Notes under the pieces: generated by a model
Told to the model about the DNA's origin: nothing
What the model saw: the letters and a program-made list of their open reading frames with translations, nothing else
Databases searched by the model: none
In this document: piece by piece, positions 10,101 through 60,436 of the stretch
Layout of the letters: every line of letters starts with the position of its first letter
Numbering within the stretch: position 1 is the stretch's first letter
NCBI GenBank assembly: GCA_963922205.1
Contig: CAWUHX010000029.1
Span: 310,001-374,000 of the forward strand
Length of the DNA: 64,000 nucleotides
Direction: 5' to 3'
From: Romanomermis culicivorax
Taxonomy: Eukaryota > Nematoda > Enoplea > Mermithida > Mermithidae
Translations under genes and position numbers: made by a program

Positions 10101-13100
10101 TATTAAAAATCAAACCTGCTGCTTCTGCTGACTCTGGTACACTGAACCCGATTGAACTTCTTGATTTGGCAATAGCTGTACTCGGAACGCGTTCCATTTG
10201 AAAGGCATAGAAGGATTATAAGCAGCCTCGACCATAACTTTCTCACCCACTCGAGGCATAGTCCCACGAATAACACTAAAATGAAATAAAAACAAAAACA
10301 TGAACACTTAAGAATCATCAAAAGACTTCATAAAGGAGCGAAGACCACAATCCGCATTTCAACTATGCAGATATATAAATTAGTTAGAATTCGTACAGTC
10401 TACACACGCAGGAGCGGAATAAGAGAATATTACATCCTCCGGTACCTAGGGAAAAATTACATCCTCCGGTACCTAGGGAAAAACCGAAGGACCACGTTTT
10501 TGAAAAAATGACGCGTAGAGTGAATGTTAAGGTGAACCATCAAACAGTTAAAGGTACTCAGTAGGACAGCAATGAAACATTCCATTACACATATAACTGA
10601 TCTTAAGCTATTGCCTTTTCCGAAGGCCGTGGAGGATTCCACAAGGGAATACTCACTTTCATAAAAAACTATCCGTTTTTTGAAGAGAGATTTCTTGCAT
10701 GAAATGTAGTTTTCTAGATAAGCGAGAAAAAATACAGTAATGTGTCACGTCAAATTTACTCTGTTTTGAAAAACACATCGTCGTCGACAAAGCCGTATTG
10801 TTCTTGTAGTTTGGTAACTGTACCGATGAACGCCCGTTGACCTTTCTGCTGTTGTTGAACTTGTTGCTGCTGTTGTTGCTGAGCGACTAGAGCCGCTGCG
10901 GCATTCTGCGCCGTTCGATTAAGCGACGAAAAATTAACCGCGTTGGCGAAAGCGGCTTGAGGTGTCGTGAACGCGGCGGCGTTGACCCCCGGGATGACAC
11001 CACCTCCCAAAGCTCCCACTGTTAAGCCGGCCTGAAAGAGCGGAATGCAATTTTTTGTAAAAGTTGACAGAGGAAACAAGCTATTTAGCAATGATGATAA
11101 GCAAAATGTACTGACACAATGCTAATGTTATTAGAAAGACATTCTTGACTTGAAAAGCTCAAAGTCATGAGTTATGTAACTGATAGTTCCTATCCGAACT
11201 CTTACGAGGCATTCATACTTCACGAAACGGCTACGGCAGAAGTGCCTAATCAAATTTCAATGCACGTGACATGCAACCGAACAATCATATTTAACGTCAA
11301 TTTTTTTAAGCGTAATCTAATTGGTCAAGATCGCCGTGGCCATGGCGTGAAGTACAAATGCGGATTTAGCCTACTCGCACAAAAAACATACTAAATTTAT
11401 ATTGTAGAATGAAAAATAAATGCGCATTTCTATAGATCTTACCCCAAGAGATTGCAGAGCGGCGGCTTGCGAAACGGCGAAAGCATTAACGCCGCTCAGT
11501 TGGCCGGTAAATAACTGCGGATTAATTTGCTGACCGCCTGAAATTTGTCCATCAATTTTCAGAAAGAGTGGGAAATTATTATTGAAAGATGTTTTGAATC
11601 AAAAGTCAGAAAAATGGTACAAAATGAAATTCTTTTAGGAATGAAAATCCATAAAAACTTGTATGTCGTGAAGCGTTAAAAATTTTCATCTTTCAACTAA
11701 AATTGGACATTTAGCCAAATAATTGGCAAACCTAGGTAAGTCGCCATATGTCTAACCATGTGGTTAATGATTACCGAAGGGGTTTCCTATGACATTCCTA
11801 CCAACCAAATGCATGCAATCAGTTGATTTCTGCACGTTCTGAGCAGTGGTTACAATGCACGGTTCCTGACGTCTTGTTGAGATCCAAAATCAAAAATTTA
11901 ACAACTAATCTCCAGTAGAATTCTGACCAGTAGTTGAGAACAAAGACAGAACTTTTCATTGGTTCAAAATTAATGTCCGAAAATAATATAATACGTTGAA
12001 GACGTCTGATCTAGCTGACTGGAGATATCAATACACTTGCACGTTGTAAGGGACCAGTCGCACCAACGATTATTTGAACTTTTCGGGTGGTTCGATGATT
12101 AATCAGCCGAAAATTTCGATTTCACGGGCCCGTAAAGTGTTTGATTTTTTCTACTCTAGTAGTTAAGCGGACTAAAAGAGTTGTCGAAAAATAAAATCGA
12201 AATGCTCCGGTTGCATCACAAAAATCTAGTTACTGTGAAATTTTCTAGTGGTAAAAAAGGGTTTTTGATAAAATCTGAATTCTGGACAAGCTTTTTTTCA
12301 TCAAAAAGTTATAGGCCAAATGGCTCCTAGACCTAAATTTTTAGGAGCCAAACAGACATTTTTAGGGGCCATAAATAATCAATGCACACTTTTGATAAAA
12401 ATTAATGCATTATATAATTCGTATAGTTTGATTGTATTTAATCCAAATTTACTTGTATCACAGATAGGGCAAATTTTTTGAATTCGCTTTTAAAACGGAA
12501 CTCATCAAAAAAGTATATTTTCAGTCAAAACACGACACGTTTATTCATTACGTTTCTTAGCAAAATCACCAGTTTTATATCGCGTTTCTTCAGCCCATAT
12601 TTTGTAAGCACTTTCGAAATCAAAATTATTACAATTGCTGTGGCATTTCTGCTAACGCATCAACACGTCCAAATGTTCAGCCTGATTTGATGATCGATGA
12701 AAAATCTAATTTTGCTATTTGATTTCTTGATCGAGTAAGACCTTACTGTTGTTCGCGAGTTTTCGTCTTTAATCTGTTCACTAGAGAAAAACAACTAAAA
12801 TTCGGTTAAACTTCAGCTGAATTTTTCGGAGCCAAATTGGCTCCTCGAAGTAAAATTTTAGGAGCCATTTTCGAACTTTTAGGAGCCCAGGCTCCTAAAA
12901 TGACTAAAAAAAGCCTGATTCTGAATAACATTTTTTCCAGAAAATTTTTAAATTTTATTCAAAAGACAGAATCTGTGAGGCATATATGATATCGTACGAA
13001 ATAACAGATAAATCCAACTATATTTTCGGAAATCCCCGAGGTCTGGGGGGGGTTGGACGACTTTTTTGGGGCCGGGGGTCAGTAATTCCCAAAATTTTGG

Positions 13101-19032: not shown

Positions 19033-22000
19033 TGCTTTTGAACACAAAATTCAAATCTAATTCTTGAAACAAATGTTCGGAAAATTGATTTTCCAGCGTC
19101 GCAGAATATCAATACCCAAAAAATTTTTAAATTAACATCCATTTTAAAAAATTAACATCCATTTTGGGTTCTCACTTGTCATCATAGAGAACCTAACCAT
19201 CGATTTCTTATGTAATTCTCAAAGTCATTATGCTTTTGGATAGTTTGCTTGAAAATTTGTTCCAATGCTAGTAGATTAAACTTTGAACTCGAAAATTTCA
19301 ATTTTTTTCCTCAATTTTAATGAATTAACGGGTCTAAAAACACCAGCAGCAGGGTTGGCAAGGCTTTGGTTTTTGGTTTTTTTGGTTTTTTGAAAAAACA
19401 AAAAGATTGGAAAATCTCCGGTTTTTTCCCAAAATCATTGGGAAACTGTTTTTTCACATCAGTCGATCTTCTAGGCATGTATTGGTATCTATCTAAATCA
19501 ACAAAACAATTAATTTAGTTGAATCGACTTCACTACAAAGTAGAAAAAAGTCGTATTTTTATGATACATTTCGTACTCAAAAGATGCAATATAAATCAAT
19601 CGATATCTTTTGTATCCATCTTGCAATCACACATTTAGTACATGAGTCAACTTTGCTATAATTTTCTCACAAAAAAGTAGACACTAAACCTTTCGTGGAG
19701 TGTACTCCACCGCCGACCATACGAAGTGACATCCATTGATCCATATCATCATCAAAATGTTATAAAACAGAGTTTAATATACTGAATTTATTGTAACGGT
19801 AAGCTTTTTAATTTTCTTAGCTCGAAATTTCAGAATATAAATGAGACAGCAATAATAAAATTTTATACAGATCAGTTAAGCGTACTGTAGGTTAACAAAG
19901 AGAGGAGCTTTTTAGTGGTCCATTTTTATGGGACTTGACGTCGCTACTAAGTAGAAAAAATTGTGCAAAAATATGTATATCTAATCATGCAAGCGAGAAT
20001 AGTATATATATAATAAGACCCACTTGCTGTAGTTATAGCTCATGGACAGGCTTGAAAAGCAAAAATTTGGAAACATCTGAAATGTCTATGTGTGGCCTTC
20101 AACTGCAGTTTGTAATATTAATAACATCTTATCGGAAAAGATATACTTAAAAATTGTGTCATTTCAACTTGTCTGTGCATGTGATGCATTGATACAATTT
20201 TGTAGTTGATTTCTTTTGAGTTTTGATTACGTACATTGTGTATTGTATATTTCTCTTTATTTGTAATTTTTCTTCTTTTCATTGAATTTGCCCCTTACAT
20301 ATCGCATGCTCTGTCCCATTTTTACTTTTCTTATGTTCTTCACTCATGGTTTCTTTCTTATGCGCCCACTATTACTGTATTTCTATTGCTATAATTGGGA
20401 TTTCCCGTAGCATAAAATAATGACACTTCTGATAAGATTAATACTTCTAGCTGCCATTTTACGGCTCCCTAACTAGTCTTCAGGGTTGGCAAGGCTTTGG
20501 TTTTTTGGTTTTTGGTTTTTTTGGTTTTTTAAAAAAACCAAAAAATTGGAAAATCTTTGGTTTTTTGGTTTTTTTCCGAAATCATCGGGAAACTGTTTTT
20601 TCACATTAGTCGATCTTCTAGGCATGTATTGGTGTGTATCTAAATCAACAAAACAATTAATTTAGTTGAATTGACTTCATTACAAAGTAGAAAAAAGTCG
20701 TATTTTTATGATACATTTCGTACTCAAAAGATGTAATAAAAATCAATCGATATCCTTTGTATCCATCTTGCAACCACACATTTAGTATATGAGTCAACTT
20801 TGCTATAATTTGCTCACAAAAAAGTAGACACTAAATCTTTCGTGGAGTGTACTCCGACCATACGGGGTGACATCCATTGATCCATATCATCTTCAAAATG
20901 TTATAAAATATGATTGAGTTTAATATACTGAATTTATTGTTACGGTAAGCTTTTTAATTTTCTTAGCTCGAAATTTCAGAATATAAATGAGACAACAATA
21001 ATAAAATTTTATACAGATCAGTCAAGCATACTGTAGGTTAACAAAGAGAGGAGCTTTTGAGTGGTTCATTTTTATGGGACTTGACGTCGCTACTAAGTAG
21101 AAAAAATCATACAAAAATATGTATCTATCATGCAAGCGAGAATATTTAAAGACCCATTTGCTGTAGTTATAGCTCGCAGACAGGTTTGAAAAGCAAAAAT
21201 TTGGAAACATCTGTAATGTCTATGTGCAGGGTTGGCAAGGCTTTGGTTTTTTGGTTTTTGGTTTTTTTGGTTTTTTAAAAAAACCAAAAAATTGGAAAAT
21301 CTCTGGTTTTTTGGTTTTTTTGGTTTTTTCCAAAATCATTGGGAAACTGTTTTTTCACATTAGTCGATCTTCTAGGCATGTTTTGGTGTCTATCTAAATC
21401 AACAAAACAATTAATTTAGTTGAATTGACTTCACTACAAAGTAGAAAAAAGTCGTATTTTTATGCTACATTTTGTACTCAAAAGGTGTAATATAAATTAA
21501 TCGATATCCTTTGCATCCATCTTGCAAGCACACATTTAGTACATGAGTCAATTTTGCTATAATTTGCTCACAAAAAAGTAGATGCTAAATCTTTCGTGGA
21601 GTGTACTTCAACCATACGGGGTGACATCCATTGATCCATATCATCATCAAAATGTTATAAAACAGAGTTTAATATACTGAATTTATTGTAACGGTAAGCT
21701 TTTTAACTTTCTTAGCTCGAAATTTCAGAATATAAATGAGACAGCAATAATAAAATTTTATGCAGATCAGTTAAGCATACTGTAGGTTAACAAAGAGAGG
21801 AGCTTTTGAGTGGTTCATTTTTATGGGACTTGACGTCGCTACTAAGTAGAAAAAATCGTACAAAAATATGTATCTATCATGCAAGCGAGAATTGTATATA
21901 TATAATAAGACCCATTTGCTGTAGTTAAAGCTCGCAGACAGGTTTGAAAAGCAAAAATTTGGAAACATCTGAAATGTCTATGTGTGACCGTCAACTGCAG

Positions 22001-22373
22001 TTTGTAATATTAATAACATATGTAATAATCTATCAATTTAAAACCATCTTATCGAAAACGGTATACTTAAAAATTGTGTCATTTCAACTTTTCTGTGCAT
22101 ATGTATATATGTGATGCATTGATACAATTCTGTAGTTGATTTCTTTTGAGTTTTGATCATGTACATTGTGTATTGTATATTTCTCTTTATTTGTAATTTT
22201 TCTTCTTTTTCTTGAATTTACCCCTTACATATCGCATGCCCTGTTCCATTTTTACTTTTCTTATGTTCTTCACTCATGGTTCCTCTCTTATGTGCCCACT
22301 ATTACTGTATTTCTATTGCTATAATAGGGATTTCCTATAGCATAAAATAATGACACTTCCGATAAGATTAATA

Positions 22374-24531
22374 CAGTACGGGACAAATTCGTTGCAGCAC
22401 CAGTAATCTTTTGGTGAATGTCTTGGCGATATACTGGGTCTTTACTGGTAGAAATTTCGAGATGAAATAGCGGATTACTGGTGCTTTACTAGTTGATGAG
22501 TTTGGCGGCCATGACGCATTACTGGTGGATTACTGGTAACATACTTCAATAAAATACGATTGGGGGTCGTTCCCGCGAAAGGCCCGTTCCCGCGAAAGGC
22601 CCGTTCCCGCGAAAGGCTCGTTCCCGCGAAAATTGTATATGTTATACTGTTGTCGTATGTTTATACGTAGGGGGGTTCGTTGCCGCGAAAGGCTCAGTAT
22701 GTTATACCGTAAATTCAAAATTACCAACTTTTTCGTGATTTTTGAGCAAAAAAACATTTTTTGGATGTGTATGCCTATTTTTAGCTTTTGAAAGCTCATT
22801 TAATATGCGTCTTTTTAAAATCCGTATGTATGAGATAGGCACTCCCAGACCACCCACACCTGTAAGAGTTTCATTGCAGTAGTGCATAAATAAGCTCTTT
22901 AATTCTTTAATCTTTAATTTATCATTTTTAATTGTTTTATTTTTTATCTTAATTAAATCTTTTTTTTTTGTACGAAAAATGTTTTGCATATGCCTGTAAA
23001 ATTTTCGCGTTATCGAGCCTTTCGCGGTAACGGGCCTGCCCTTTCGCGGGATCGAGCCTTTCGCGGTATCGGGCCTGTTCGCGGTATCGGGCCTTTCGCG
23101 GTATCGGGCCATACCCATAAAATACACCCATACTATTTATAAGCAAGTAATCAATACAATGTCTGTAGTTTTGGCCTTCATTCTGCTTTGCGTTTTTCTC
23201 CTTAACAAAAATACGGACGTCTGCCATCCTCATGAATATTAATGAATCGAAAAGCATTTAGTTGTTTTCTCGCCTAAAAGTTGTGTGACGAAAAACGACC
23301 AGAAAGGAGGAATGGGCTTTTATTGTGACCGTTTCAGCCACTGAGCATTTCAGCTACTGAATACTTCTAGTTAAATATGAACTGATACTTGCTTTGTAGG
23401 TTTTAGTTTAGACGCGTTTCAAGATGCATATTATTATGTCATTAAAGCGGAAAGATTATGACCATCAATTTTCAGATAAAAGGAATTTGTGCAGTTTTTG
23501 TGTGACTTGTTTTCTTTTTAAATTTTTTTCGGTTTCCTACTTGGGAAAGATGAACATTGAGCAGGCTGTGTTCAGGCAAATGACAGTCCATGTGAAGAGT
23601 TTTTTTGACAAAATATCTTATAGTTCTTTTCCTTTTGAGAACCATAGCGAAAGCTATTTTTAGCTTTCATCAAAAAGACGATTATAGGTGTGCATTAAAG
23701 TTTGAAGCATACTGAGATGTGATCTATTTTTAAATATAGAAAAATCATAATTCTTTCTAGTTTTCAACCTGAATTTTCGCAATAAATATACTTAAAGGTT
23801 GATGTTCTATCATGTTCATGTGTATAAACAATAGTGGGTATTTAATTTCTGATGTGCGTCTCGATTTGGCAAGAAGCACATTTCATCAACTGAGACTGAT
23901 ACAGTCTTTGTTTATGGAAGTTTTCTGTAACTTCAGGCACCAATACTATTTTAGTTATTATTTTTCATGTAAAGTGTAAATAAATCAGTTCAAGTAATAT
24001 GGTAATAGTAGAATTAAAAATGTACATTTTGGTTGCTTTTGGAAAAGTTATCAATTCAAAATAAAAACGGATAAATACAAATAAATGAGTGGTGGATAAA
24101 TCAAGACATAGATGAAAACACTACATTGATGCATGCAGTGTCAGTTTAATTTCACTAAAATTGTACAGTAGCTATAATGCTAAGTGGCAGAACGCCCACA
24201 ATAAAATGCCATTTCTCTTTTTTGCTTCATTTATATTCATGAGGATGGCGGACGCCCATATTTTTGTGAAGGAGAAAAACGCAAAGCAGATAGAAGGCTA
24301 AAATCACGGACATTGTATTGATTACTTGCATATAAATAGTATGTGTACATATTTTATTGATGTATGTTACCAGTAATCCACCAGTAATGCGTCATGGCCG
24401 CCAAACTTATCAACTAGTAAAACACCAGTAATCCACTATTTCATCTCGAAATTTCTACCAGTAAAGACCCAGTAATCGCCAAGACATTCACCAGAAGATT
24501 ACTGGTGCTGCAACAAATTTGTCCCGTACTG
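22374..24531. mobile_element. Tc1/mariner-like non-autonomous element with ~300-bp inverted repeats, inserted in copy C
   Basis: The ends are CAGTACGGGACAAATT and its reverse complement. The flanking TA (22372-22373, 24532-24533) is duplicated: the uninterrupted sister copy reads GATTAATACTTCTAG (around 20450) with one TA. The right inverted repeat is continuous (about 24228-24531); the left one is split into 22374-22557 and about 23117-23250 by a later insertion. The 1-kb middle has no recognisable transposase; a 79-codon frame at 23424-23663 is unremarkable. Confidence 0.9.
22558..23116. mobile_element. Foldback element with minisatellite arms, inserted in the left inverted repeat of the Tc1/mariner-like element
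   Basis: It is flanked by the 9-bp direct repeat ATAAAATAC (22549-22557, 23117-23125). The opposite arm of the host element preserves the empty site (ATAAAATAT on the complementary strand near 24350). The left arm repeats CCGCGAAAGGCCCGTTC-like units (22573-22695); the right arm has the inverted form (about 23005-23110). The middle is AT-rich. A 9-bp TSD would suit a Mutator-like transposase, but no transposase is present. Confidence 0.8.
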
Positions 24532-25684
24532 TACTTCTAGCTGCCATTTTAAGGCTCCCTAACTAGTCTTAGATGATACAGGGAGCTTCCAGCAGTTTTT
24601 TCATAGTTATTTTGATGTACCAAACATTCTAAAGAATTAAACCAGAAAAAAACCACTAAAAAACCAAAAAAACCATAAAAAACCACTAAAAAACCAAAAA
24701 GTCAAAATTTCAAAAGTTTGGTTTTTGCCAACCCTGTCTATGTGTGACCTTCAACTGCAGTTTGTAATATTAATAACATATGTAATAATTTATCAATTTA
24801 AAACCCTCTTATCGAAAACGGTATATACCTAAAAATTGTGTCATTTCAACTTCTCTGTGCATATGTATATATGTGATGCATTGATACAATTCTGTAGTTG
24901 ATTTCTTTTGAGTTTTGATTACGTACATTGTGTATTGTATATTTCTCCTTATTTGTAATTTTTCATCTTTTCCTTGAATTTGCCTCTTACATATCGCATG
25001 CTCTGTTCCATTTTCACTTTTCTTGTGTTCTTCACTCATGGTTCCTTTTTTATGTGCCCACTATTACTGTATTTCTATTGCTAAATAGGGATTTTCTATA
25101 GCATAAAATGATGACACTTCTGATAAGATTAATACTTCTAGCTGCCATTTTACGGCTCCCTAACAGTTAGTAACTAGCAGGGTTCATACAAAGTTGGAGA
25201 AAAAAAATTCCGTGTTTTCCAGGTTTTCCAGGTTGACAAATGAAATTTTTCCAGGTTTTTATAATGATGAAATATTAAAATCCTGAAGAAAAATACTGAA
25301 TAATAGAAACATGTGTGAGCTAAAGTATCATCAAAAATAGAGTACTAAATCAAAAAATTTATTTCAAATTAGTGCGTAACCTAGCGCCGAAAAATTTTGA
25401 TTCTGAAGCCTCTAAAACGTCGGAAAATTAATTTTTCAGCACATTCTTATGCAGCTACCGATGATCAATCGTGATCTTTTCAGCATTTGATTGGTGGAAG
25501 CGTTAAAACATTTTTCTAACGTTTTCGTATACCAAGAGCCAGTAATTTACCAATCATAATTATTTATGATATATATAAACCAACGTATAAACCATAAAAA
25601 AGTGTGATAGACATTTTACTTCGGACTCGGATATCGGTAATTAACGCGGTGCAGAGCATCGGAAAAAATTCGGATCTTGATATT

Positions 25685-26176
25685 GGTACCGAGACATTAG
25701 AGCGCGGGACAATAGAGCGCAGAAATTAGAGCGCAGGGACATTAGAGCGCAGAGACATTAAAGCGCAGGACTATAGAGCCCGGGACAATAGAGCGCAAGG
25801 ATAATAGAGCGCCAGGACAATAGAGCGCAGGACAATAGAGCGCGGACGTTAGAGCGAGGATGCTCTATTATCCTGCGCTCTATTATCCTGCGGTGTATTG
25901 TCCTGCGCTCTACTGTCCACGCTCTAATGTCCGCGCTCTATTGTCCTGCGCTCTAATGTCTCTGTGCTCTATTGTCCTGCGCTCTAATCTTCCCGCGCTC
26001 TAGTGTCCCTGCGCTCTATTGTCCTGTGCTCTAATGTCCCTGCGCTCTATTGTCCTGCGCTTGCGTTCTAATGTGCCTGCACTCTATTGTCCTGCGCCCT
26101 ATCGCCCTGCGCTCTAATGTCTCTGCGCTCTAATGTGCGCACTCTAATGTTCCCGCGCTGTAATGTCCGGTCACGT
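25685..26176. mobile_element. Near-complete palindrome made of ~16-bp tandem repeats (element G)
   Basis: The left arm (to about 25860) repeats AGAGCGCAGGACAAT-like units and the right arm repeats the inverted form (GCTCTATTGTCCTGC) up to about 26170, with almost no spacer. The 8-bp direct repeat TTGATATT (25677-25684, 26177-26184) flanks it. The right arm is longer than the left (about 310 versus 175 bases), as expected if repeat number varies. It lies in element F. Confidence 0.8.
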
Positions 26177-28027
26177 TTGATATTCTATATCGTTGGAAAA
26201 TGACTATTTTTAATACCTATTTCCTGCCTGAAAAGTCTAATTTTTCAGTAAATTCAACATGTTTTCAGTCAGGCAAACTGAAATTCAAAAATTAGGCAAG
26301 CAGCAATGGATTGAATGACTTTTTCAGACAGAAGAACCTCTGCTATTGTCCCACGCTTAATCATTTTCCAAATGCAAAAAGTTATCTTCACGAAAGTCAA
26401 AAATTCTAAATAACCACAAAACGATTTTGTGGAAATAATCTAGAAAAATCGATGTTTTAGTCAAATATGTGAAAAAACAATACAAGGTCAAACATTCATC
26501 CATAACATGCTGATGTTTAAAAGCTATAAGACAGCGTAAGCTAGGCCGACATTTTCCAACCGCACAACAGAAATGATAACAAGAATCATAAGTGATTTGA
26601 AATCCGGCGCGAAGCGCCGGAAAATTTTCGATATGTTTTCTTAAAAACGCATAAGAATGCATCTAAGCTCACCCAATCAAAAGGGTCGTTCAGGCTCTAA
26701 TTTTTATAAGCCATGTTGGCTTGTGCCCCTAAATTTTTAGGAGTCAATCAGAATTTTTAGAAGCCATGGCTCCTAATTGACCTAAAAAAAACCCTGACCA
26801 GACTCGATTTTTTTCGCTCGCAAATATGAATGCTCTATAGCTGAAAACATTTTGTTGATTAGTCTCCAATTTTCTGGCATAAATGGGGAGTTTGAATGTT
26901 TTCTCGAATATTACCCTTACAATCCAATTGAAACGTTGACTTTGACATAATAATTCAAAGGCTAAATTAAAAGTTGAAGTTGAAAAACTAAAAAAACGAT
27001 CTCAAATACCCGATAATTTTAAGCAATTTCACTTTCAATGTGCATACAGGGTTGGCAAGGCTTTGGTTTTTTGGTTTTTGGTTTTTTTGGTTTTTTAAAA
27101 AAACCAAAAAATTGGAAAATCTCTGGTTTTTTGGTTTTTTTTGGTTTTTTTCCAAAATCATTAGGAAACTGTTTTTTCATATTGGTTGATCTTCTAGGCA
27201 TGTATTGGTGTCTATCTAAATTAAAATAACAATCAATTTAGTTGAATTGACTTCACTACAAAATAAAAAAAGTCGTATTTTTATGATACATTTCGCACAC
27301 AAAGGATCCTTTCCTTCGTACCCATCTTGCAAGCACACATTTAGTACATGAGTTTAGTTTGCTATAATTTGCTCACAAAAAAATTGGACGCTAAATCTTT
27401 CGTAGAGTGTACTCTGACCATACGAGGTGACATCCATTGATCCATATCATCAAAATTTTACAAAATATGATTGAGTATAATAATCCTGGATTCATTGTTA
27501 CGCTAAGCTTTTCAATTTTCTTAGCTCGAAATTTCAAAATATAAATGAGAAAACAATAATAAAATTGTATACAGATCAGTTAAGCATACTGTAGGTTAAC
27601 AAAGAGAAGAGCTTTTGAGTGGCTCATTTTTATGTGACTTGACGTCACTACTAGGTAGAAAAACATCTTACAAAAATACGTATCTATCATGCAAGCGAGG
27701 ATAGTATATATAATAAGACCGATTTGCTGTAGTTACAGACAGGTTTGAAAAGCCAAAATTTGGAAACATCTGAAATGTCTATGTGTGACTTTCAACTGCA
27801 GTTTGTAATATTAATAACATATGTAATAATCTATCAAGTTAAAACCCTCTTATCAAAAACGGTATACTTAAAAGTTGCGTCATTTCAGCTTTCCTGTGCA
27901 TACGTGATGCATTGGTACAATTCTGTGGTTGATTTTTTATGAGTTTTGATTACATTCATTGCGTATTGTATATTTCCCTTTATTTATAATTTTTCTTCTT
28001 TTCCTTGAATGCTCCTTACATATCACA

Positions 28028-29285
28028 CAGGGTTGGCAAGACCTGGGTTTTTGGGTTTTTCTGGGTGCATTTTCTTGACAAAATTTGGGTTTTTGGGTTT
28101 TTCTTAATTCTTTTAAATTTTCAGATAGTATTGTTTTCAGAAAAAGAATTTAGTTTTTAGTTTTTTTTAAATTTTAAACTTTTTTTATATTTTAAATTTT
28201 TTTTATGTTTCCTAAAATTTTTTGTTTTCGTTTTATTTTTTTCATTAAAAAAATTTTTTTTAAATTTCTTTTTATTTTTTCAAAATTAAAAAAAAATTTT
28301 CATAGGAAACACGAATGGGAAAAACACGGTTCCTGCGCTACGGAAGTCAAATCTTTGCCCGATGAATCGGCCTATTTTAATCGTGGATTGAAAATACACG
28401 ATTCCTATAATTTGATAAGGTAAAAAATGACGTCATCAATTTTTTTGATAAAAAAATTTGTTTATTCTTCAATGTTTCAAAGTTAATTTTAAAAAATCAA
28501 TATTTTGCATTATTTTCGGTATTTATCACTTGAATTTATAAATTTTAAAATGTTTTCAAAATTTTTAAATTTTTTTCTTATTTTGTTTCATTTTTTCGTT
28601 TTTTGCTGTTTGTTTTTTGTTTTTTGTTGTTTTCTGTATTGTATTTTTTTATGTTTTCATTTTTTCTTTCTTTTTTTGTTTCTGGTTCGTTGTTTTCTGT
28701 TTTTTTTAATTTTTTTCTGTTTATTTTTTGTTTGTGGTTCGTTAGTTTTTCTTTTTTTTGTTTTTTCCCTTTGGTTCTTTTTGTTTTCTGTATGGTATTG
28801 ATTTTTATGTTTTTTTTTTCTTTCCTTTTTTTTGTTTCTGGTTCGTTGTTTTTTCTTTTTTTTGATCTTTTTCTGTTTGTTTTTTGTTTTTCTTTTCTTT
28901 TTTTGTTTTTTGTTGTTTTCTGTATTGAATTTTTTATGTTTTCATTTTTTTGTTTCTTTTTTTGTTTCTGGTTCGCTGTTTTAATGAGCCAAATCGATAA
29001 AATCGTTGTGCAATGTGCAGTCGTGACTCGTGTAAATATGTTACAACCAAATGTATAGTCAGTCTTGAACACTGTTCAGCAATTTCATACACTTTATACA
29101 TTAAAAATAACATTCTCATATATATTTTAAGTAAAATGATCATTCATTAGTACAAAACTGGAACAAAAACCCTAGAAAAACCCACCGAAAACCCAGAAAA
29201 ACCCACCAAAAACCCAGAAAAACCCACCAAAAAACCCAAAAACCCAAAAATGAAGATTTCAAAAACTGGGTTTTTGCCAACCCTG
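28028..29285 (+). mobile_element. hAT-like element E carrying a captured RNase T2 exon, inserted in copy D
   Basis: The termini are CAGGGTTGGCAAGACC and TTTTTGCCAACCCTG with GGGTTTTT-type tandem words, so it is a relative of copies A-D but a distinct family. The flanking 8-bp TSD reads ATATCACA on the left (28020-28027) and ATATCGCA on the right (29286-29293). Sister copies have this region uninterrupted (ACATATCGCATGCTC). It contains an RNase T2 exon at 28306-28419 followed by a long T-rich, A-poor tract (28560-28980). Confidence 0.88.
28306..28419 (+). pseudogene. RNASET2: Captured RNase T2 exon (CAS II active-site block)
   Basis: The peptide KHEWEKHGSCATEV, followed by about 23 residues including AYFNRGLKI, matches the second conserved active-site block of RNase T2 enzymes (family consensus EWxKHGTC; here Ser replaces Thr). 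The exon has a T-rich acceptor (TTTTCATAG) and a donor (AAGGTAAAA). It begins with a lone G in the phase expected if the preceding codon is the family's Trp (TG/G), and ends in phase 2. No other RNase T2 exon (for example the CAS I block) was recognised in element E. It is therefore an isolated internal exon moved with flanking intron, not a working gene. RNase T2 proteins are secreted or lysosomal acid endoribonucleases. Confidence 0.82.
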
Positions 29286-30230
29286 ATATCGCATGCTCTG
29301 TTCCATTTTTACTTTTCTTATGTTCTTCACTCATCGTTTCTTTCTTGTGTGCCCGCTTATAATAGGGATTTCGTATAGCATAAAATAATGACACTTCGGG
29401 TAAGATTAATACTTCTAGCTGCCATTTTAAGGCTACCTGACTAGTCTTAGATGATACAGGGAGCTTCCAGCAGTATTTTACATAGTTATTTCGATGTACC
29501 AAACATTTTAAAGAATTAAACCAGAAAAAAACCACTAAAAACCATAGAAAAACCAAAAAAACCATTAAAAAACCATAAAAAAACCACTAAAAAACCAAAA
29601 AACCAAAATGTCGAAATTTCAAACGTTTGGTTTTTGCCAACCCTGTGTGCATAGTCGAATAAGGAAACTCGCCGCAGCGCGGCGAAAAAATTTGACGATT
29701 TTCCTGTAATTTTCAACACAAAATATTTATTTTTCCTTAAAATTCCCTATGTTTTCCAGGTTTTCCAGGTTTTCCAGACCTGAAAAAAAATTCCCTGTGT
29801 TTTCCAGGTTTTCCAGGTTGTGTATGAACCCTGACTAGTCTTAGATGATACAGGGAGCTTCCAGCACTTTTTTACATAGTTATTTTGATGTACCAAACAT
29901 TCTAAAGAATTAAACCTGAAAAAAACCACTAAAAAACCATAGAAAAACCAAAAAAAACCATTAAAAAACCATAAAAAACCACTAAAAAACCAAAAAACCA
30001 AAAAGTCGAAATTTCAAAAGTTTGGTTTTTGCCAACCCTGCTAGTCTTAGATAATACAGGGAGCTTTCAGCAGTTTTTTACATAGTTATTTTGATGTACC
30101 AAACATTCTAAAGAATTAAACCAGAAAAAACCATAGAAAAACCAAAAAAAGCCATTAAAAAACCATAAAAAATCACTAAAAACCAAAAAACCAAAAAGTC
30201 GAAATTTCAAAAGTTTGGTTTTTGCCAACC

Positions 30231-30890: not shown

Positions 30891-32126
30891 GCTTTCACCC
30901 CTATTCAGCGAAACTCACAACAGCGAAACTCAAAATAGCGAGACTCAATACAGCGATTCTAAAAACAGCGAGGTCTCAAAACAGTGATTCTCAATACAGC
31001 GAAGTCTCAATACAGCGATTCTCAAAACAGCGAATTTTCAAAACAGTGATTCTCAATACAGTGAAGTCTCAATACAGCGATTCTCAAAATAGCGAAGTCT
31101 CAGATCAGATTCTCAAAATTATGAATTTTCAAAAAAATTATATTCAGAATGGGAAAATGGAGATTGGTCGGGGTAGACATTTTGGCCTTTATTTGGCCCT
31201 ATTTGGTCCTCCATATCAATCTGGTGGATGTTGGTTGTCACACATTTTGGTACGAATTACCAGATTTCTGAAATTATGGCTCTATAGCATGTGTTTTCAC
31301 GACATTAAAGCTGTTTATTCTGGTTTGTTGATTATTAATATATCTATCTACATGCATGTTTTTTGTTTCTTTTTTCCCTTATTGACTTACTTCCCTTTAT
31401 ATTCTTCTCGTTTTGAGCCACTTTTTGTTTTTTTGTTTAATTTTTGCAGGTCGTGTACTTTTCTTTTGTTTTTTACCTACTTTTTACAACATTATTTTAC
31501 TTTTCGTTTCTTTATTATTTGTTTTTTGTTCTGCCTTTACTGCTTCATTATTTTATTCATTTGATTTGATTTTATTAATTTTGTTAATTTAATTTTTTTC
31601 GCAATTAAGCTCCATACAAAACAATTTTAATCGGAAATCCTTATGATAATTTTTTGATTTTGTTCTCGTTCAAACTTTTTGCAAAAATGTTTTTCTGGCA
31701 GATATTTTTTGTGATTTTGGAATGACCCTTTCATGCATACCTACCGCAACTGCAACACAAAGCATGTAAAACTTAGTTACATTGTAAAAAACAATGAAAC
31801 TAAAAATAAACTATCTCGCCAGCTAGAACGATTTTAATGTACTTAATTTGGATATTTATTATAAAATGATGTATGCGTTTACTCTAATGCATAAAACTTT
31901 TTACTATTCGCTGTATTGAGATTCGCTCTTTTGAGAATCGCTGTATCGAGATGTCGCTGCAATGAGAATCGCTTTTTGAGACTTCGCTGTTTTGGGAAAC
32001 GCTGTATTGAGACTTCGCTGTAATGAGAATAACTGTTTGGAGACTTCGCCGTTTTGAGAAACGCTGTTTTTAGTGTCGCTATTTTGAGTTTCGTTGTTAT
32101 GTGTTTCGCTGTATTGGGGACACGCC
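30891..32126. mobile_element. Foldback element with CAGCGAAACTCAAAA-type minisatellite arms (element H)
   Basis: The left arm (30905-31120) repeats CAGCGAxxCTCAAxA units of about 15-16 bases; the right arm (31910-32118) has the inverted form. The ends are GCTTTCACCCC and GGGGACACGCC. The 8-bp direct repeat AACCAAAA (30883-30890, 32127-32134) flanks it. The 780-bp centre is T-rich. A frame open at 31046-31564 reads from the repeat arm into this T-rich sequence and is probably not a gene. Confidence 0.82.
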
Positions 32127-32706: not shown

Positions 32707-33791
32707 AACTAGTTTATTAGAAAATGCCCCGATGGGGCAGAAAAAAGGGGAATATACTTGCTTCGACAGTTGCCATGGTAGAAAAAGAAGTGGACTAGAT
32801 TTTTGAGAACTTGGGTCAAAGTTGGAAAAAATTCACTTTCTTTACATTGGATTTTCATTCTTTCTCAAAAAAATTGTCTATGTCTGTGAAAAAGTATATT
32901 CTGCAGCATCGTGCATTTTGTCCTTCAACTGGCATCAACTACAGTAAAATTTTTCTATATGAAAATTATATGCACCTGACTTCAAGTGTAAAGAAATGGT
33001 AAACCGATAGCATTCTAACTTCCGACCAATTCAAAACTCCTGCCTTTCACACTAGCTGAAAAATAGTGAGGGAGGCATATTATAGTCATTTTCAGAACGA
33101 TAAAGGAACCTGAGGTTCCTTTCACTAACCCAACATGAGGATAATCTCAACATCGGGATTAAATTGATGATCCTGAGTTTAAGCTATTCACAATGTCCAA
33201 ATTATTTTCTTCCAATGCACAAATCAAACTCACTTCAGGATTAACTAAAACTGAGGTTTAAGTTCGAGTTTGGGAATCACAAAAATTTTCATTCTGCTTT
33301 AGAGACAAGAAAATTATGCGAAAATGTCACTTGATTCCTTTTGTTGACACCAAATTCAGTGCAATGTTTAACACCATTGGAAGCAAACATGTGTGAGAGG
33401 AGACACGGGGGTACAAATTTCCACAACGGTTTTGAAACTGATGGAAAATTTGTTATGCAAAAAATTTTTTGGTCAACTTTTTTTGAATTTTTTGTCTCAC
33501 AAAATGCTAAAACACCAAGGTCCACGCCTGTACTCTCCTAAAAATTTCAGAGATGCACATGCTTGGTTGGAAAGTGTGTTGATGCACTCAGCTGCAGAAT
33601 ATACTTTTTCACAGACAAAGACAATTTTTTTGAGAAAGAATGAAAATCCAATATAAAGAAAGTGAATTTTTTCCAACTTTGACCCAAGTTCTCAAAAATC
33701 TAGTCCACTTCTTTTTCTACCATGGCAACTGTCGAAGCAAGTATATTCCCCTTTTTTCTGCCCCATCGGGGCATTTTCTAATAAACTAGTT
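32707..33791. mobile_element. 1.1-kb element with ~207-bp near-perfect terminal inverted repeats (element J)
   Basis: Left inverted repeat 32707-32914 and right 33585-33791 are almost identical in reverse complement. They start AACTAGTTTATTAG, contain the small palindrome GCCCCGATGGGGC, and end inward at GTATATTCTGCAGC. No convincing TSD and no transposase domain were found. Short frames inside (for example 33289-33525 minus) are not recognised. Confidence 0.75.
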
Positions 33792-43600: not shown

Positions 43601-46600
43601 CAGCTAAATTTTGCGAATGTTCTTCAAAAACAAGTTCAAACAGTTTTAGATTATTAGCGGTGCTGTATATTTAGAACCAGCAGAAGTAAGTGACTACAAC
43701 AGCGTAAAAATTTCTAAAAAATTACTGATTTCAAAACGACAGCATTCGAAAGACCAAGTTTGAATACCTCTCAAATTTCGAATAAAATCTTCCACTCTCA
43801 TCCTCTTTTCGGGCTTGATATTTGGCGAATGCAAATCAGTATTGAGCATAATTATGGCGAATGATAGAATAAATACAGTATCCATATGCCTGAATAACTT
43901 TTTTACGTGGTCTTGATTACAAGACCAGTATCTTCGAGCGAAAACCTAAATAAGAATACTTGTTCGTAGGATAAAAATTAAAATATTAAAATAATTAAAA
44001 TAGAAAACCCACCTCCATTATTCTTTCGATTTTTTGAGCCTCGCCAGGGAGTCGAAAAATTGATTGAAAATGCCTCAAAGCGGTGTCAATGTCCATATCA
44101 CGAAGATCGATTTCATTCGCCAAGTGACTATAAATAAATATTTTAAAAAGTCAAAATTAGAATATTTACAAAAAAAATTACTCCAAAACTGAAGCGGAGA
44201 AATGGTTTTGTAAGTTTCCCAAATATTCGCCGATCATTTGTTTGCTGAGACCTTTACGGGTCATCAGGAATTTGGCGACATTTAAAGGCGAAGATTCAAC
44301 GAAATTCCATTTGATGAGCAGGTGAATGCCACGTTCCGGTTTTCTAAAATATCGTAGAACTCACGTAATTTCACAGAAATCCCATATTTTGCACAAACAT
44401 TCAAAACTACATTTTTGTAGCCATTTTTGCATGGCTGAATAAGTAAAGGTCGCAAACCACTTTTGACACTGATTTCTATGACTTCTAAGTCACGTGACAA
44501 ATCGAAACATGATTTCAACCATTTACGTCTTCATTCGATTATGAGTCCAGATTACAGCGAAACATCCTCATTATCTCTAAAAGCTTTGAAACGTACATTA
44601 AAACAAATCATATGTGTTCAAGTGAAAACTTGAAAATAACATCAGCTTTAAGGACAGCGCAAGACAGGTCATTATATACATGAAGAATTTCTGCTTCTGA
44701 TCATGTTTGTATTGCTAAGTTTTAATCAAACTATTTCCTCACTTATTGAAAAAATTCAACGCAATTCGATACTGTCGTTTACGTTCGACATCAGTCGATC
44801 GGACCGACATCCTGATCAAACTTCGTCTTGGCCAACATTGTTGTTTTTTGATCGAAAAATCGTCTCCGCCAGCACAAACCAAACTGTTCATTTTTCCTTC
44901 ACTGCCGAAATTGACGTGTTTTTTGTTACTACTGCTGGTAGGTGTTTCTCGAAAATTCACTTCAATAGCGTTATTCGAGGACGTGGGATTCGGGTCGTGG
45001 CAACAGGATGTCTGAAGACAGCGACCCGGCTCATCCGTTTCTCGAGGTATCCATACCGGGTCGGTTGGTGATGAACAACTCACTCTAGGACAAATGAAAA
45101 TAGATCAGCAAGATTGTTATCTAAGAAAGTTTACTGTAACTACAGCGACTAATTGTTTAATGAGGAGTTTTTCAAATAATCAAAAGTTACTGTAGCTCCG
45201 ATAACACACTTCAACCAGAATAGAAATTCATGACACGTTGAATTGTTGCACGCACAACAACTTCGGAAACTTCTAAACTTTCGAACGATTTTCTGCACTT
45301 ACTTTTCGCTAGATTTCGAACTGGCTAACGATGTCACACCGCTGTCATCCGGCGACGGTGTTGCGCAAGCCAAATTTCCAGCTACAGAAATCGGCTTCGT
45401 ACGTGTACCTGACGATGCTGCAAGTTCCTGCCCCGTACTAGAGGACGGTTGTTGCTTGATTCTAATTACCGGGCAATTAAGGGCGTAATTAAGTTTGAAA
45501 GATGGGTCGTATTTGTTCAATAATTTTATTTTTTGGTCCACGATTGGCGATGAAAAATTTCTACATAACGGGAAATTTTGTTTAATCATGGTCGTTTTAG
45601 AAGTAGGTGATTCCAAAGATTTTAGAATTTCTTCTTGATTGGACAAAATTTTGTATTGGAAATAAGTTCTATTACAATTTTGGTCTAAAATTTCGTTGGA
45701 GGAACAATATTCGCGACATCGTTCAGGAATATTTTCGCTGCCGGAAAATCTATGTTCCGTTTCCAATTCTGTAATTTTCTTGTTTATCTCCACTTTCACG
45801 ACCGTATAATTCTTGTCGATCAAATTCGGATAAGGCCTCAACTTCAATTTTTCGCCGATTTTACCGTAATCGCTATTCTCGCCCGCCTCCGCCTCCTCAT
45901 TTGCATAAATTTCACGGAAATTTCGCCGCTTTTTATTGGACACTAATGTTTTGAATTTTTTCTGCAAATCGTAACGTCTGTAAGCCCTTTGAATTACCGA
46001 AGCAGCTCTATTGGCCCTGATTCGACCGCCGTAACGATTTTCTAAAATTTCGATCTGCTTTTGTTGAAAGTCGGACGAAAATTCGTACGACGGAACGGAC
46101 GCCGAAGAAGAATCGTCAGACGACGACGCCGTCGAGAAAAACGTTGTCGACGAAGAAGCTTCGCTGCTGCTGCTCGTATTTGCGTTAAAATTATGCAAAT
46201 TAATAGTGGCTAGATTACGACGCGGTTTTTTGGGCGAATTTACGGTCAAAATTAGCGTTTCTTTCGGCATTTTGACACCGTTACTATTTTCCTGGAATGA
46301 AGACAACGTTTTTGGTTCCAGTTTTTCGTTCAAAATTTTTGTCGATGATGGCGATGATGGGTAACATTGGCTATTGCTTTTAGTTTTCCAGGTATGTCCG
46401 TCTTCTAGGATTTTTCTATTTGAGTTATCTTCGTTCCGATTCGATAAACTAAAAATAGAAGTAAAGTGGCATAGTAGATAGACAGAAGCATGGAACACAA
46501 GACAACAAGCATGGAAAAACGTCAAGCAAGACGAACACGCAAAAAACGGTCCCAAAATTTTGCAACTTGGCATCAGTACGCAATTTAGACTCATGAAAAT

Positions 46601-49600
46601 TTGGAAGGGAAAACGGAAAATTTTCCACGGTTTCCGTTACGGATATTATGGAGAGATCTAGCTAAAGCTCGAAATTCTTAACAAAATATGAAGCCTTTGA
46701 AGATTCGAATCAAATCTCTATTAAACTGAACCGAAACTTTTTTTCAAACTTAGCTTAAACTAAAACCCAAAAATTGTATTGAATCAGGTGCAAAATTTCA
46801 AAAGAAGACATTGTTTTGAAATTTCATTTTCTCATTTTATGCAGTTTTCCTTGTAGAACTATGGCCTGTTTTGACACTCCTGTATGAAATATTTGAAGCC
46901 AAAAAAGCGAAATGGCAAAAATCAGCGATGTCTTCCAGAGCGATTACACTGACGTGAGCTTTTGCCGTTTTGCTCACAAAATTTTCATGGTTTATTTTAC
47001 TACTAAGCTCACAAATTACCAGTCGTGTTCAGCAGAAAGTCGTACCGAAAAATATCAAATGAAAAATTTAAACAATACTGACACTATAAACAGAAAAGTA
47101 CAAATTAAATTATTGAACAGCGTAATTTTTCACAAAAAAATTTCATGCGACCCAGTTTGGAGAAAATAGTCATATGCGTGACACCGTATCTTACTATGAT
47201 TCCCATTAATTCCGAAATTTGTCACTCAATCTTTCAGACTTACTACTAATGAAAAGTAGAATGTTTCAGCTTTTCGACTAGCGTTAGGTTAGCCAGTAAG
47301 ATAATATCAGATATAGTTGAAAATTCGTAATAGAAACTACTACTGTCATATTTTCGGGAGGAAAAATCCCACACTGCTACTCTGCATATTTTTAGGGTTG
47401 GCTGGTCGGTAACACGAGATAATTAAAGATAAATTTGACGAGATGGACACATCTATAAACATCCTCTTATTCACTATACACACATGCGTCTCCGGAGGCA
47501 CGATGGCGAGAGATGGAATGGAAACGTAAACTTTTTACGACTATGCACAATACCACCAAGTGAAACTTTTCATTGAGACATGTCGCCTGTCCGCCCCATG
47601 CTTTGATGAGAAAAATTTTTGCGGGAAGATACTAGTCTTGTGCCGAAGAAAAGCTGATCATGAATACAAGTAATGAACGAAGAAACACTTCGCGCAATTA
47701 TATGCACTTTCTAAAGCAAATATGAAAAATCCATCAATTTTTCCTTAACTTCCCCTTCTGCGCAGCCCACGTAAGTTTTCTACAAGCTCAACTTTTTAGG
47801 TGGAGGAAGAGAGGACGAGAAGACCTTCTGGCTTAAATCTAAAAAAGGTAAGAGTTGCAGAATTGATCGTGTACGGTAAACTGTGTGTCAGATCATGCAC
47901 ATATGCACACATATAAACCACGGTAAGGGCGTAGTCATAAAAATTGGAATGACTGTATATGGAAACGGTGATCTTTATGCTTCTTGAAGAAGAATCTTTA
48001 ATTAAACGATGTCACAGATAGTTACCCCCTGGAGATCGTTGAAAAAAATTAAAAAGTAATTAGCTCATAGCACGGTAATTAACTCTTATTGTAGAAAATG
48101 GCTGCAACGGCATTCATAAACGTTCTGGCGCTGATATTGATGATGATTCCTCGATATCTGAAGCACTCCCTCATTTGCAACAAGAAAAAAATCAACAAAA
48201 AGCATTCATTTAAGCATTTTACGTAATCGATCAACTTGGTAAAATTAACATAAAAAATGTGGAATTGTTGATATGCAAAACAATGCTCAAGACGATATAA
48301 TCTGCGAATGACTGACTGGAAATGAGAAAAACAGTGAGAATGGACATAAAAAATAGTATTCCTATGTAAATGTCCTGCTGTATGATTGATTTCCTGGTGC
48401 CCAGGTGTCCATACAACTTTGATTCTGTTTAAAATTGGGTATGAACAAAATTTTAAAATTTTTCCGAAAAGTATAACGCTGAATCGATGGTCTATACGCT
48501 TCACAGAGCTAATACGTCGAATACAACTGGTATTATGAAAAATCAGAAAATTCGACAGCAATAAGGGCCAAAAAAACATCAGTCGGAAATTGAACCATAA
48601 CGTGTTCTTTTGAAACTAGAAACAACTAAAAATTGTTCCCCAAAACAACAATTATCATGCAATCGCAGTACTATTACCCTAGTTTATTGGCATTCATTTT
48701 CGTGCTATTCATAAAGAAAAATATTTTTTGTGGTTCTCAATCTTTACCCTCGGGCTGAGTTACAGAAAGATGGTCAATTTTTTTGGATTTTTTTACAGTT
48801 TTACCACCACGACGTGTTTGAAATATTTGATATACATATCAGTCGTGTCTAAGGCAGGCTTAATGTTTATGATGGAAAATTAATAAAATGTGGTAATTGT
48901 GGAAAAAGACAAATTTCTCCATGAAACATTATAATTTTCTCGTTTTGAGAGCTGTTGCACGTGCAATATGCGATGCATAGTAAAATTCTCTGTGAGGGAA
49001 CGTGCAACTTGTCTGCTCTCTTGACAGAAAAGGTCGATAAATTCTCATCAAGTTATAGCCGAAAAAAGGCACGCAATCAGAAATGGTCATTTATGCGAAT
49101 TTCCGGATCTCTTCACGTTTGCAGCGGAAGCAAATTTTGCACAGGATGGTGTACATTCCTTTGTTCGTCCAAGGTAGTAAACTTAACAACATATGTTTCT
49201 CTATGCTAGCATTGACCGCGTCACTGTATAGGTGAGTCGATTCTCATGGGCATTGACTACCAAGTTTCACCCGGTAGAAAGCGGCTGCAGGAAGATGCCA
49301 AGTCAGTTCTTGAATAATTTGGATCTGAAAGCGAACTAGACTGATCAATAACATTTTTCTGATTTTTGAAAAAGGCTTTTCAGCGGAGAGGTCAATTCAG
49401 ACACTGATCTTGATGGCCTGCAAGATGCTTATGAAAAATAAAATTGTGAACATCATGTCTCCAAATCATGTCAAATAACATACGTAATTCTAGGGGGTCA
49501 AAAACTATCCGCATAACCACTGAATAGGGCTCATCCAAAAGATGAATCAGAAGAGAATTCCGTCTTACCTCAAGCGAGTACTGCTACTTGGGGCTTAGAT

Positions 49601-58409: not shown

Positions 58410-60432
58410 TCAATGCAGTAGCGCGTGACTAGTCAGTTGTGGAGGACCACTGACTTGCGCGTTAAAAATTTCGAATGCCGTTCGAGGCAAATACGGCTTT
58501 ACGCGAGAAAGTGAGACTTTCTGAGATTGTCCGGGACAATCTAGACTATCGATCGTTATGACGTTTTTCGAAATTTCGGAGTTTTCGACCACTACGAAGG
58601 GTTGATATAGTCTTTGTCGATTTTAGTTGCTTTTTTGTTGTTAAGCAACAGTATGAGATCGTTTAGATCGTATTTCTGCTCTTTCGCTTTTTTATCGAAG
58701 TATCGTTTATGTGATTCGGACGCGTTTTTTAAGTTTTCGAAAACTTTGTTATATAGCGTTAGTTGCGCTTGCCTGAAGATATACTGATACGCATCGTAGT
58801 TTAGCGGTAACGTTAGACTTTTAGCGCAGTCGAAATCTATAGCGATTCTGGGTTCATACCCTCGCAGAAGTCGAAACGGAGAAAAGTGAGTAGCTGTGTG
58901 AGGAACAGTGTTATAGGCGAATGTCGCGAAAGGTAGATACCGTTCCCAATTATCGGGATCTTCAGCGGTGAATTTTTTGAGTTGCGAAATCAACGTTTGA
59001 TTGAATCTTTCGACCATTCCGTTACATTGAGGGTGATACGCAGTGGTATTGATTTTCTGAACTTTTAGGAGTTTCGCGATGTCTTTCATCAAGTTTGAAG
59101 TGAATCCTGAACCCTGATCTGATAAAAGATGTTTCGGGCTGCCATGAACCAAAACTACATTGTTTACGAAACTTTCGACTATAGTGGCTGCTTTTTGATC
59201 CGGAATCAAATGAGCGCTTACCCATTTAGTGAAGTAGTCTTGAAATACGATGACGTATGATCTTTTCTCACCCAGAGGGGATATGTTTACTATGTCGGTC
59301 GCGACGATTTCAAATGGATATTTTGGTTGGATCGGCATCAAAGGAGGAGGTTTCGGCAACTGAGAAGTCGTTTGTTGACATGTTTTACATGTTTTGATCC
59401 ACTTTATTATCGATTCTTCCATTTTCGGCCACCAGAAATGCTGACGAATCATTGCTGTAGTGCGTCTGTGACCTTGATGGCTCAAAATCTTTGCTCCATG
59501 GAATTGATACAAAACACTTTCAATCAGAGTAGTTGGAACTACTATCGCGGAAGCTGTGTTAGCTTGTTTCGATGTTCGGTACACTATTTCGTTTTCGGTA
59601 TGGAAGGCAGATGAAATCGTAGAGATTTGCTTTTGTTCTAGGACTTTTATCAACTTCGCGATGTACGGGTCTTTTCTTTGAGCTTCTTTGATTTCTTCCG
59701 GTGATTCTATAGTTACTAGCCGTTTCTCAGGCTGTTGGAAATCTTCTTCGAACTTCGGCACTTTATTTCTTTCTTCTTTTTTCGTCATTGACCTTGTTAT
59801 TGCCGCTGCAACAGTCTTTTTTGTTTCGCGAAATGTCGGTCTGAATATTTCATTTGTTACTTCTTCACTAGTCTTTGACGTCACTTTAGCGCGAGGTTCA
59901 TTTCGTGATAGAAAATCAGCACAAGCATTTTCTTTGCCTTTCACATATTCAACACGATAGTCGTAATCTTGCAGCTTTATTGCGAAGTTCTGAAGTCGCG
60001 AGTTTCGATGTTTTTCTTCTTTGATCCATTGTAAAGGCTTATGATCAGTTCTGACCGTTACTTTTTGACCATAGACATAGTGTCTGTACCACCGAAATGC
60101 TTCTACAATTGCTAGACATTCGCGCTCAGTAGTACTGTAGCAGGTTTCTACGTCAGACAGAACTCTACTATTATACGCGATGACCCATTGATCAGTTTCG
60201 TTTTCTTGATACAAAATCGCACCAATAGCAGTTGTGCTAGCATCAGTTTGGATGATGAATTTCGATTTTTCGTCGTTATAGACAGGATATCGCAAGAAAG
60301 GAGTTGAGGTTAGAGATGTTTTAATCTCGTTAAACGCTGTATGATGTTCTTCGCTTATCTCATATTTCGCGTTTTTTCGTAGAAGTTGATAGAGAGGTCG
60401 CGAAAGAGTGGCAAGATTCGGTATGAATCGTC
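58410..60432 (-). pseudogene. pol: gypsy pol, RNase H and integrase segment
   Basis: After the nonsense codon the same frame continues to a stop at 58592-58594. RNase H is recognisable by [42 protein letters not shown] and CADFLSR. The integrase follows, with an HHCC-type region (HQGHRRT, then CKTCQQ), and all three catalytic acidic residues visible in [15 protein letters not shown] and NGMVERFNQ. The C-terminal piece (SLSRVKPYLPR) lies in a different frame at 58410-58592, so an indel separates it from the integrase core. The integrase core itself looks intact. Confidence 0.92.
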
Positions 60433-60436
60433 TACA

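Follow-up and report, generated by a model that had tools for sequence, protein, structure and literature searches.

Pack-MULEs are plant elements of the Mutator superfamily with 9-bp duplications. According to Tan et al. 2021 (PMC8277862), those of rice have terminal repeats around a gene piece and many of them are multicopy, features that recur in the element described here. For animals, that paper counts 370 Pack-TIRs in 100 reference genomes, among which hAT elements make up 208 and just four cases are multicopy; most of the elements it presents exist as single copies, others in three or four. They include Pack-hAT-N8_XT of the western clawed frog, where a 5' UTR piece is present three times, the fly family Ssk-FB4, which numbers four copies, and a human Pack-TIR in which a coding exon of ERP44 is accompanied by parts of the introns (Tan et al. 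2021, PMC8277862).

Our data come from the nematode Romanomermis culicivorax and concern element E, which we consider very probably (roughly 0.94) to be a Pack-type non-autonomous hAT transposon that contains a contiguous genomic piece of an RNase T2 gene and was mobilised after the capture. Like the animal hAT Pack-TIRs, it has non-autonomous hAT ends around a piece of a host gene whose parent lies elsewhere, and as in the multicopy example its duplications differ between copies, here with few exceptions. Set against the frog example and the other multicopy cases in Tan et al. 2021 (PMC8277862), E is present in about 50 copies, carries a complete coding exon including the splice sites on both sides, and has exon-less and partly deleted siblings that survive beside it. 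E is an exceptionally amplified addition to the known animal hAT Pack-type elements. A previous sequence-only reading of this locus held that an animal hAT example with a preserved catalytic exon would be unusual; given the 208 animal hAT Pack-TIRs counted there, such elements are not rare, and it is the copy number that stands out.

Two other systems are close to this one. The hAT transposon with histone H3 of Pseudocercospora fijiensis, which has hundreds of copies, is likewise a host gene captured by a hAT transposon and amplified to high copy number, but as described by Dhillon et al. 2019 (PMC6710886) it is fungal, its capture is transcript- or retrocopy-like without introns and it has been mutated by RIP, whereas E took genomic DNA with introns and its copies differ little. 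Turmoil-1 of C. elegans is a DNA element with pieces of protein-coding host genes, and according to Sela et al. 2008 (PMC2572040) these pieces lie in the inverted terminal repeats, whereas in E the captured DNA is an interior segment between short hAT ends. Searches of an open-access library listed no title or abstract on a hAT element with an exon of RNase T2, which does not in itself prove absence.

The first capture of gene pieces by animal DNA transposons is debated, the two proposals being gap filling in place and template switching followed by transposition. Here the parental gene, siblings lacking the exon, a partly deleted form with its junction, about 50 dispersed carriers of the exon and a nested second movement all occur in a single genome; as all these stages are found together, the order of events and the fate of the captured exon are directly testable, as is any splicing of such a ready-made symmetric exon into new genes.

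Structure of element E

The window, by which we mean the whole stretch of 64,000 nucleotides analysed, is C29:310001-374000 in the genome that was searched (359,112,060 bp in 595 contigs). Element E occupies 28028-29285 on the plus strand (1258 bp), starts with CAGGGTTGGCAAG, ends with GCCAACCCTG and has the terminal inverted repeat CAGGGTTGGCAA at both ends. It is flanked by an 8-bp target-site duplication, ATATCACA at 28020-28027 and ATATCGCA at 29286-29293, in which 7 of 8 bases are equal. The host of E is element D (27047-29645, plus strand), which in turn lies between two copies of TGTGCATA (27039-27046 and 29646-29653). The site of E is also covered by three further D-type copies of the window, whose starts are at 19350, 20481 and 21227, and ATATCGCA is uninterrupted in all three (20299-20306, 22229-22236 and 24991-24998). 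As these copies have no insertion at ATATCGCA, the entire 1258 bp is extra sequence in D, and the earlier proposal that E is bounded by family termini and a near-perfect 8-bp duplication inside D holds. E has the features of a MITE in being short, non-autonomous and present in about 50 carriers, and by eye its list of reading frames contains nothing transposase-like. The surrounding stretch (19350-30230) is a dense nest of D-family copies, one inserted in another; copy B (21227-24736) sits inside the D-family copy that starts at 20481, with the duplication TCTATGTG (by eye).

The captured RNase T2 exon, which encodes the CAS II block, lies at 28306-28419 (plus strand, 114 nt) between the acceptor CATAG and the donor AAG/GTAAAA. 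Its open frame is the one in which the preceding exon supplies TG (Trp split TG/G), and it ends in phase 2 as well. The translation scores 37.8 bits against Pfam PF00445 (Ribonuclease_T2; E 2.7e-9, cut-off 26) and matches human RNase T2 in the PDB (3t0o) with E 1e-6. Chance likeness to RNase T2 is ruled out by the Pfam score and by identity to the parental exon described below. The intact acceptor and donor and the Trp TG/G phase that the sequence-only reading had assigned to this CAS II exon were thus all seen, and its statement that E contains no other recognisable RNase T2 exon agrees with scans of the whole window by motif and BLAST, which short or divergent exons would escape. No HGLWP-type CAS I motif is present in the six frames of the window; a human RNASET2 query gave, after the exon, a next best match in the window at E 0.98 with phmmer and 0.58 with tblastn; and the organism's own next RNase T2 exon found nothing better there than E 1.1.

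Elements of the hAT superfamily have short terminal inverted repeats of the CAGGG type, and a BED zinc finger at the N-terminus of the transposase is common, though not universal, among them. An exon-less sibling of E, e0, lies inside the carrier L046; it is 1072 bp long, has the ends of E and the duplication GTTTTCTG on both sides, and its 119 encoded residues match Dimer_Tnp_hAT (PF05699) with 39.9 bits (cut-off 21.4). A second exon-less copy of 1072 bp, L056, is 97% identical to e0 and has a perfect duplication, and the exon-less L059, also with the ends of E, encodes an N-terminal transposase piece whose BED finger (PF02892) at 20.9 bits is barely above the cut-off of 20.6. L057 and L058 are further siblings without the exon. 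The PF05699 domain in e0 and the BED finger in L059, between the same ends as in E, identify the family as hAT. With an 8-bp duplication and, in its family, a hAT transposase, E is not a Pack-MULE. A genome search with the e0 transposase fragment gave 1033 first-look candidates; the 150 that were scored are mostly frames of about 119 residues, and one is a frame of 259 residues. For hAT dimerisation domains at large there were 1837 candidates in the genome, of which 150 were scored. The transposase that moved E would have acted in trans from other members of the hAT family.

Origin of the captured DNA

The parental gene, which the sequence-only reading had proposed to look for in the same genome, was found on C369 together with a collinear, in-phase next exon. 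The parental exon (C369:113724-113837, minus strand) is identical to the exon in the window at 114 of 114 bases, and is also identical to the majority sequence of the carriers. The next RNase T2 exon, with the peptide ILSSVDIYPSDENLYPSKLIFDHLKSILNNSFSLHCLKSQ, follows about 3.1 kb downstream in collinear order and has the phase expected from AG/A, as seen in the contiguous 13.0 kb read around the parental exon. In the 6.1 kb of the parental locus (L033) no terminal repeats of E were found at up to 1 mismatch. As in a Pack-TIR, then, host gene sequence lies within the element's own ends and its parent lies elsewhere, with no flanking transposon.

BLASTN aligns positions 124-929 of E with the parental locus at 85.9% over 809 columns, intron sequence as well as exon. 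Because the introns on either side of the exon match the parent, the captured DNA is genomic and not derived from a transcript; a retrocopy origin of the exon is rejected for the same reason. Between the hAT ends of E there is one contiguous parental piece, which consists of the end of one intron, the 114-nt CAS II exon and the start of the next intron. Read along the plus strand, E begins with a hAT-derived left end of 100 bp (28028-28127) that ends in AAATTTTCAGATA and shares 98 of 100 bases with the exon-less L059, followed by a 26-bp filler (28128-28153, boundary by eye) and by the captured 3' part of the upstream intron (28154-28305), assigned from the BLASTN match to the parental locus. 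Downstream of the exon, the captured intron with its T-rich repeats (28420-28977) is collinear with the parent to about position 929 of E (28956), and the hAT-derived right end of 308 bp (28978-29285) is common to the exon-less e0 and L056.

In the parental gene, no CAS I exon could be located within the 6.6 kb read upstream. A candidate for it on C235 had E 1.95 genome-wide and reached 1.9e-5 only against four short loci, and it was dropped, its 43 residues having no Pfam match and the adjoining frame resembling, by eye, the end of a LINE-type element. On C369, part of the RNase T2 gene is also duplicated in tandem, at 128400-135500 (L049, L054; about 4.7 kb, 81% identical); in this duplicate the next exon is protein-identical, and no CAS II exon is present in the 7.1 kb read. 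Its copy of the next exon (C369:129900-130061), taken alone, reaches 20.1 bits with PF00445 (E 7.7e-4), short of the cut-off of 26.

Mobility after capture

A search of the genome with the PF00445 profile returned 51 matches when E values up to 10 were allowed and 48 with a limit of 0.001; of the 51, 50 cover the CAS II exon. The 51 comprise the parent, the duplicated next exon and 49 other copies (window included). We read 42 of these 49 carriers, namely the window and L009-L048 without L033 (40 together), plus L051 and L052; the others are on C310, C28, C180, C81, C128, C76 and C199, and in four of them (C310, C180, C76 and C199) the right end of E lies about 0.6 kb beyond the exon. An 8-bp target-site duplication, scored as the best pairing among candidate ends, is present in 38 of the 42 carriers, with all 8 bases equal in 33 and 7 of 8 in 5, and no convincing one was found in the remaining four (L014, L019, L043 and L048). 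These 38 duplications comprise 37 different strings. The window and L024 represent a single insertion event of E, and L042 and L047 have a common G-rich string. Of the carriers with a duplication, 29 are 0.95-1.32 kb long and the other 9 are 1.5-3.2 kb. A further carrier, L060, was found via the right end of E; its exon is frame-shifted and absent from the profile matches, so that the carrier counts are lower bounds.

The nearly all-different duplications indicate that E transposed after the capture. The sequence-only reading had suggested looking for other copies of E with the exon, and the roughly 50 carriers, 38 of the 42 read having a duplication, are what that search produced. Its central claim, that a non-autonomous hAT element captured a gene fragment, is confirmed by the parent, the carriers and the hAT transposase pieces in the siblings. 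One could instead read the window as a broken resident RNase T2 gene hit by several transposon insertions, as the intact splice sites and frame of the exon might suggest, but this is extremely improbable: the site of E is empty in three D paralogues, no other RNase T2 exon is recognised in the window while the gene itself is on another contig, and the exon recurs, mostly between duplications, at some 50 places.

A second composite of D and E was found in L024, with E at the same position of D as in the window and the D+E block 98.6% identical between the two over 2616 columns. The outer duplication of D is ATCATTCT in L024 and TGTGCATA in the window, and since the two differ, D moved with E inside. 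The E copy of the window therefore entered D, and D with E inside it later moved again.

The junctions of the captured block bear on how it was acquired. The 26-bp filler was not found at up to 4 mismatches in the 13.0 kb parental region or in the 7.1 kb around the partial duplicate, nor at up to 3 mismatches in the exon-less siblings L056 and L059, but it is present within 3 substitutions in 39 of the 41 other carriers, which points to one founding capture. A transposition-independent route, in which an empty E in D received the exon there by gap filling and the chimera never moved, is what Tan et al. 2021 (PMC8277862) argue for most single-copy animal Pack-TIRs. For E this is very improbable, both because of the shared filler and because the chimera lies at dozens of sites with different duplications. 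Gap filling may nevertheless explain the first capture. The partly deleted L058 keeps the left end, the intron and the T-rich repeat and has no exon; its captured block runs into AAATTTTCAGATA, beyond which comes the C-terminus of the transposase, and these 13 bases recur at the left junction. In the capture, the parental piece would have taken the place of a hAT copy's interior, through break repair or through replication with template switching, and both the 13-bp repeat at the two block edges in L058 and the 26-bp filler would fit either process, whether gap filling or fork switching. More of the right interior of the hAT element is left in L009 than in other carriers; when the 42 carriers were typed by their right junction, the main type accounted for 30, a second type for 3 and the L009-like type for 1, with 8 unclassified. 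After one capture, the copies probably diversified by internal deletion and nested insertion, the direction of these changes being the presumed one.

Two carriers, at C33:1079111 and C8:2140789, were at one point considered as divergent RNase T2 genes and rejected as such, both being E carriers. L060 (C32) and L051 (C33) have the duplication ATTATTTA in common, either as a site in a repeated host element or by coincidence. In L010 (C8:2261200-2267300) the 3' part of the carrier holds other sequence with TTAGGC arrays. Genome-wide, such arrays give 20,286 overlapping exact 42-mer matches compared to 3 for the reversed control, and on C1-C4 some of them are far from contig ends.

Fate of the captured exon

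Of the 42 carriers, 41 retain the acceptor AG and 40 the donor GT, and in 41 no stop interrupts the 37 codons, although among these last 41 the final codons of L042 are out of frame and an insertion of 3 bp is present in L032. Together with the symmetric phase of the exon (2-2), this is what would be seen if the exon were used, either as a mobile cassette exon kept by selection or by giving rise to small RNAs directed at the parental RNase T2 gene. We regard such use as unlikely. The copies were found via a protein profile, which favours intact frames and which the frame-shifted L060 escaped, and exon-less siblings (L057 and L058) exist. Divergence from the majority sequence is 38/4560 in the exon compared to 36/4159 in the adjacent non-repetitive intron (Fisher p 0.91; 40 carriers, L051 and L052 left out). 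Only the non-repetitive flank (0.87% differences) was used against the exon, the T-rich flanks differing by 2.7-2.8% through alignment noise. As the exon diverges at the level of its flanking intron, it looks like a young passenger, and it would most likely ride as a neutral one.

Nonsynonymous and synonymous changes number 22:13 in 40 carriers (one of the 22 a stop), somewhat lower than the neutral expectation of about 82:24 (p 0.07), or 17:10 with each change counted once (p 0.10); the neutral spectrum comes from the flank and includes T-rich columns. These ratios may reflect weak constraint on the exon. Judging from splice sites and frame, which they keep, the exons of most carriers could be spliced into host transcripts. 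The suggestion of a mobile exon-trap cassette thus stands as far as mobility and, in most copies, splice sites are concerned; exon trapping itself may occur, with no significant sign of selection on the exon. Quite unlikely is the more specific proposal that E, lying in sense in a phase-2 intron, is spliced in and so adds an in-frame 38-residue CAS II module to several host genes, or that its copies make small RNAs which regulate the parental RNase T2.

Additional features of the window

Outside the nest of D-family copies, two exons of host genes were recognised on the minus strand, one at 10759-11121 with an S1-like domain (PF14444, 38.6 bits) and a glutamine-rich stretch, and an exon region at 45302-46636 with IQ-motif matches below the cut-off. 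At 25691-26168, a tandem array of the 15-16-bp unit GACAATAGAGCGCAG is followed by its reverse complement, the two forming inverted arms. Arrays of a 31-bp unit at 30906-31118 and 31906-32116 are mutually inverted and about 0.8 kb apart, and are possibly the ends of another element. The inverted repeat at 32707-33791, with arms of 210 nt that are 98% complementary and 665 nt apart, also resembles another inverted-repeat element. Finally, two long adjacent frames at 58595-62296 on the minus strand are, by eye from their translation, similar to the pol of a Ty3/gypsy-type retroelement.
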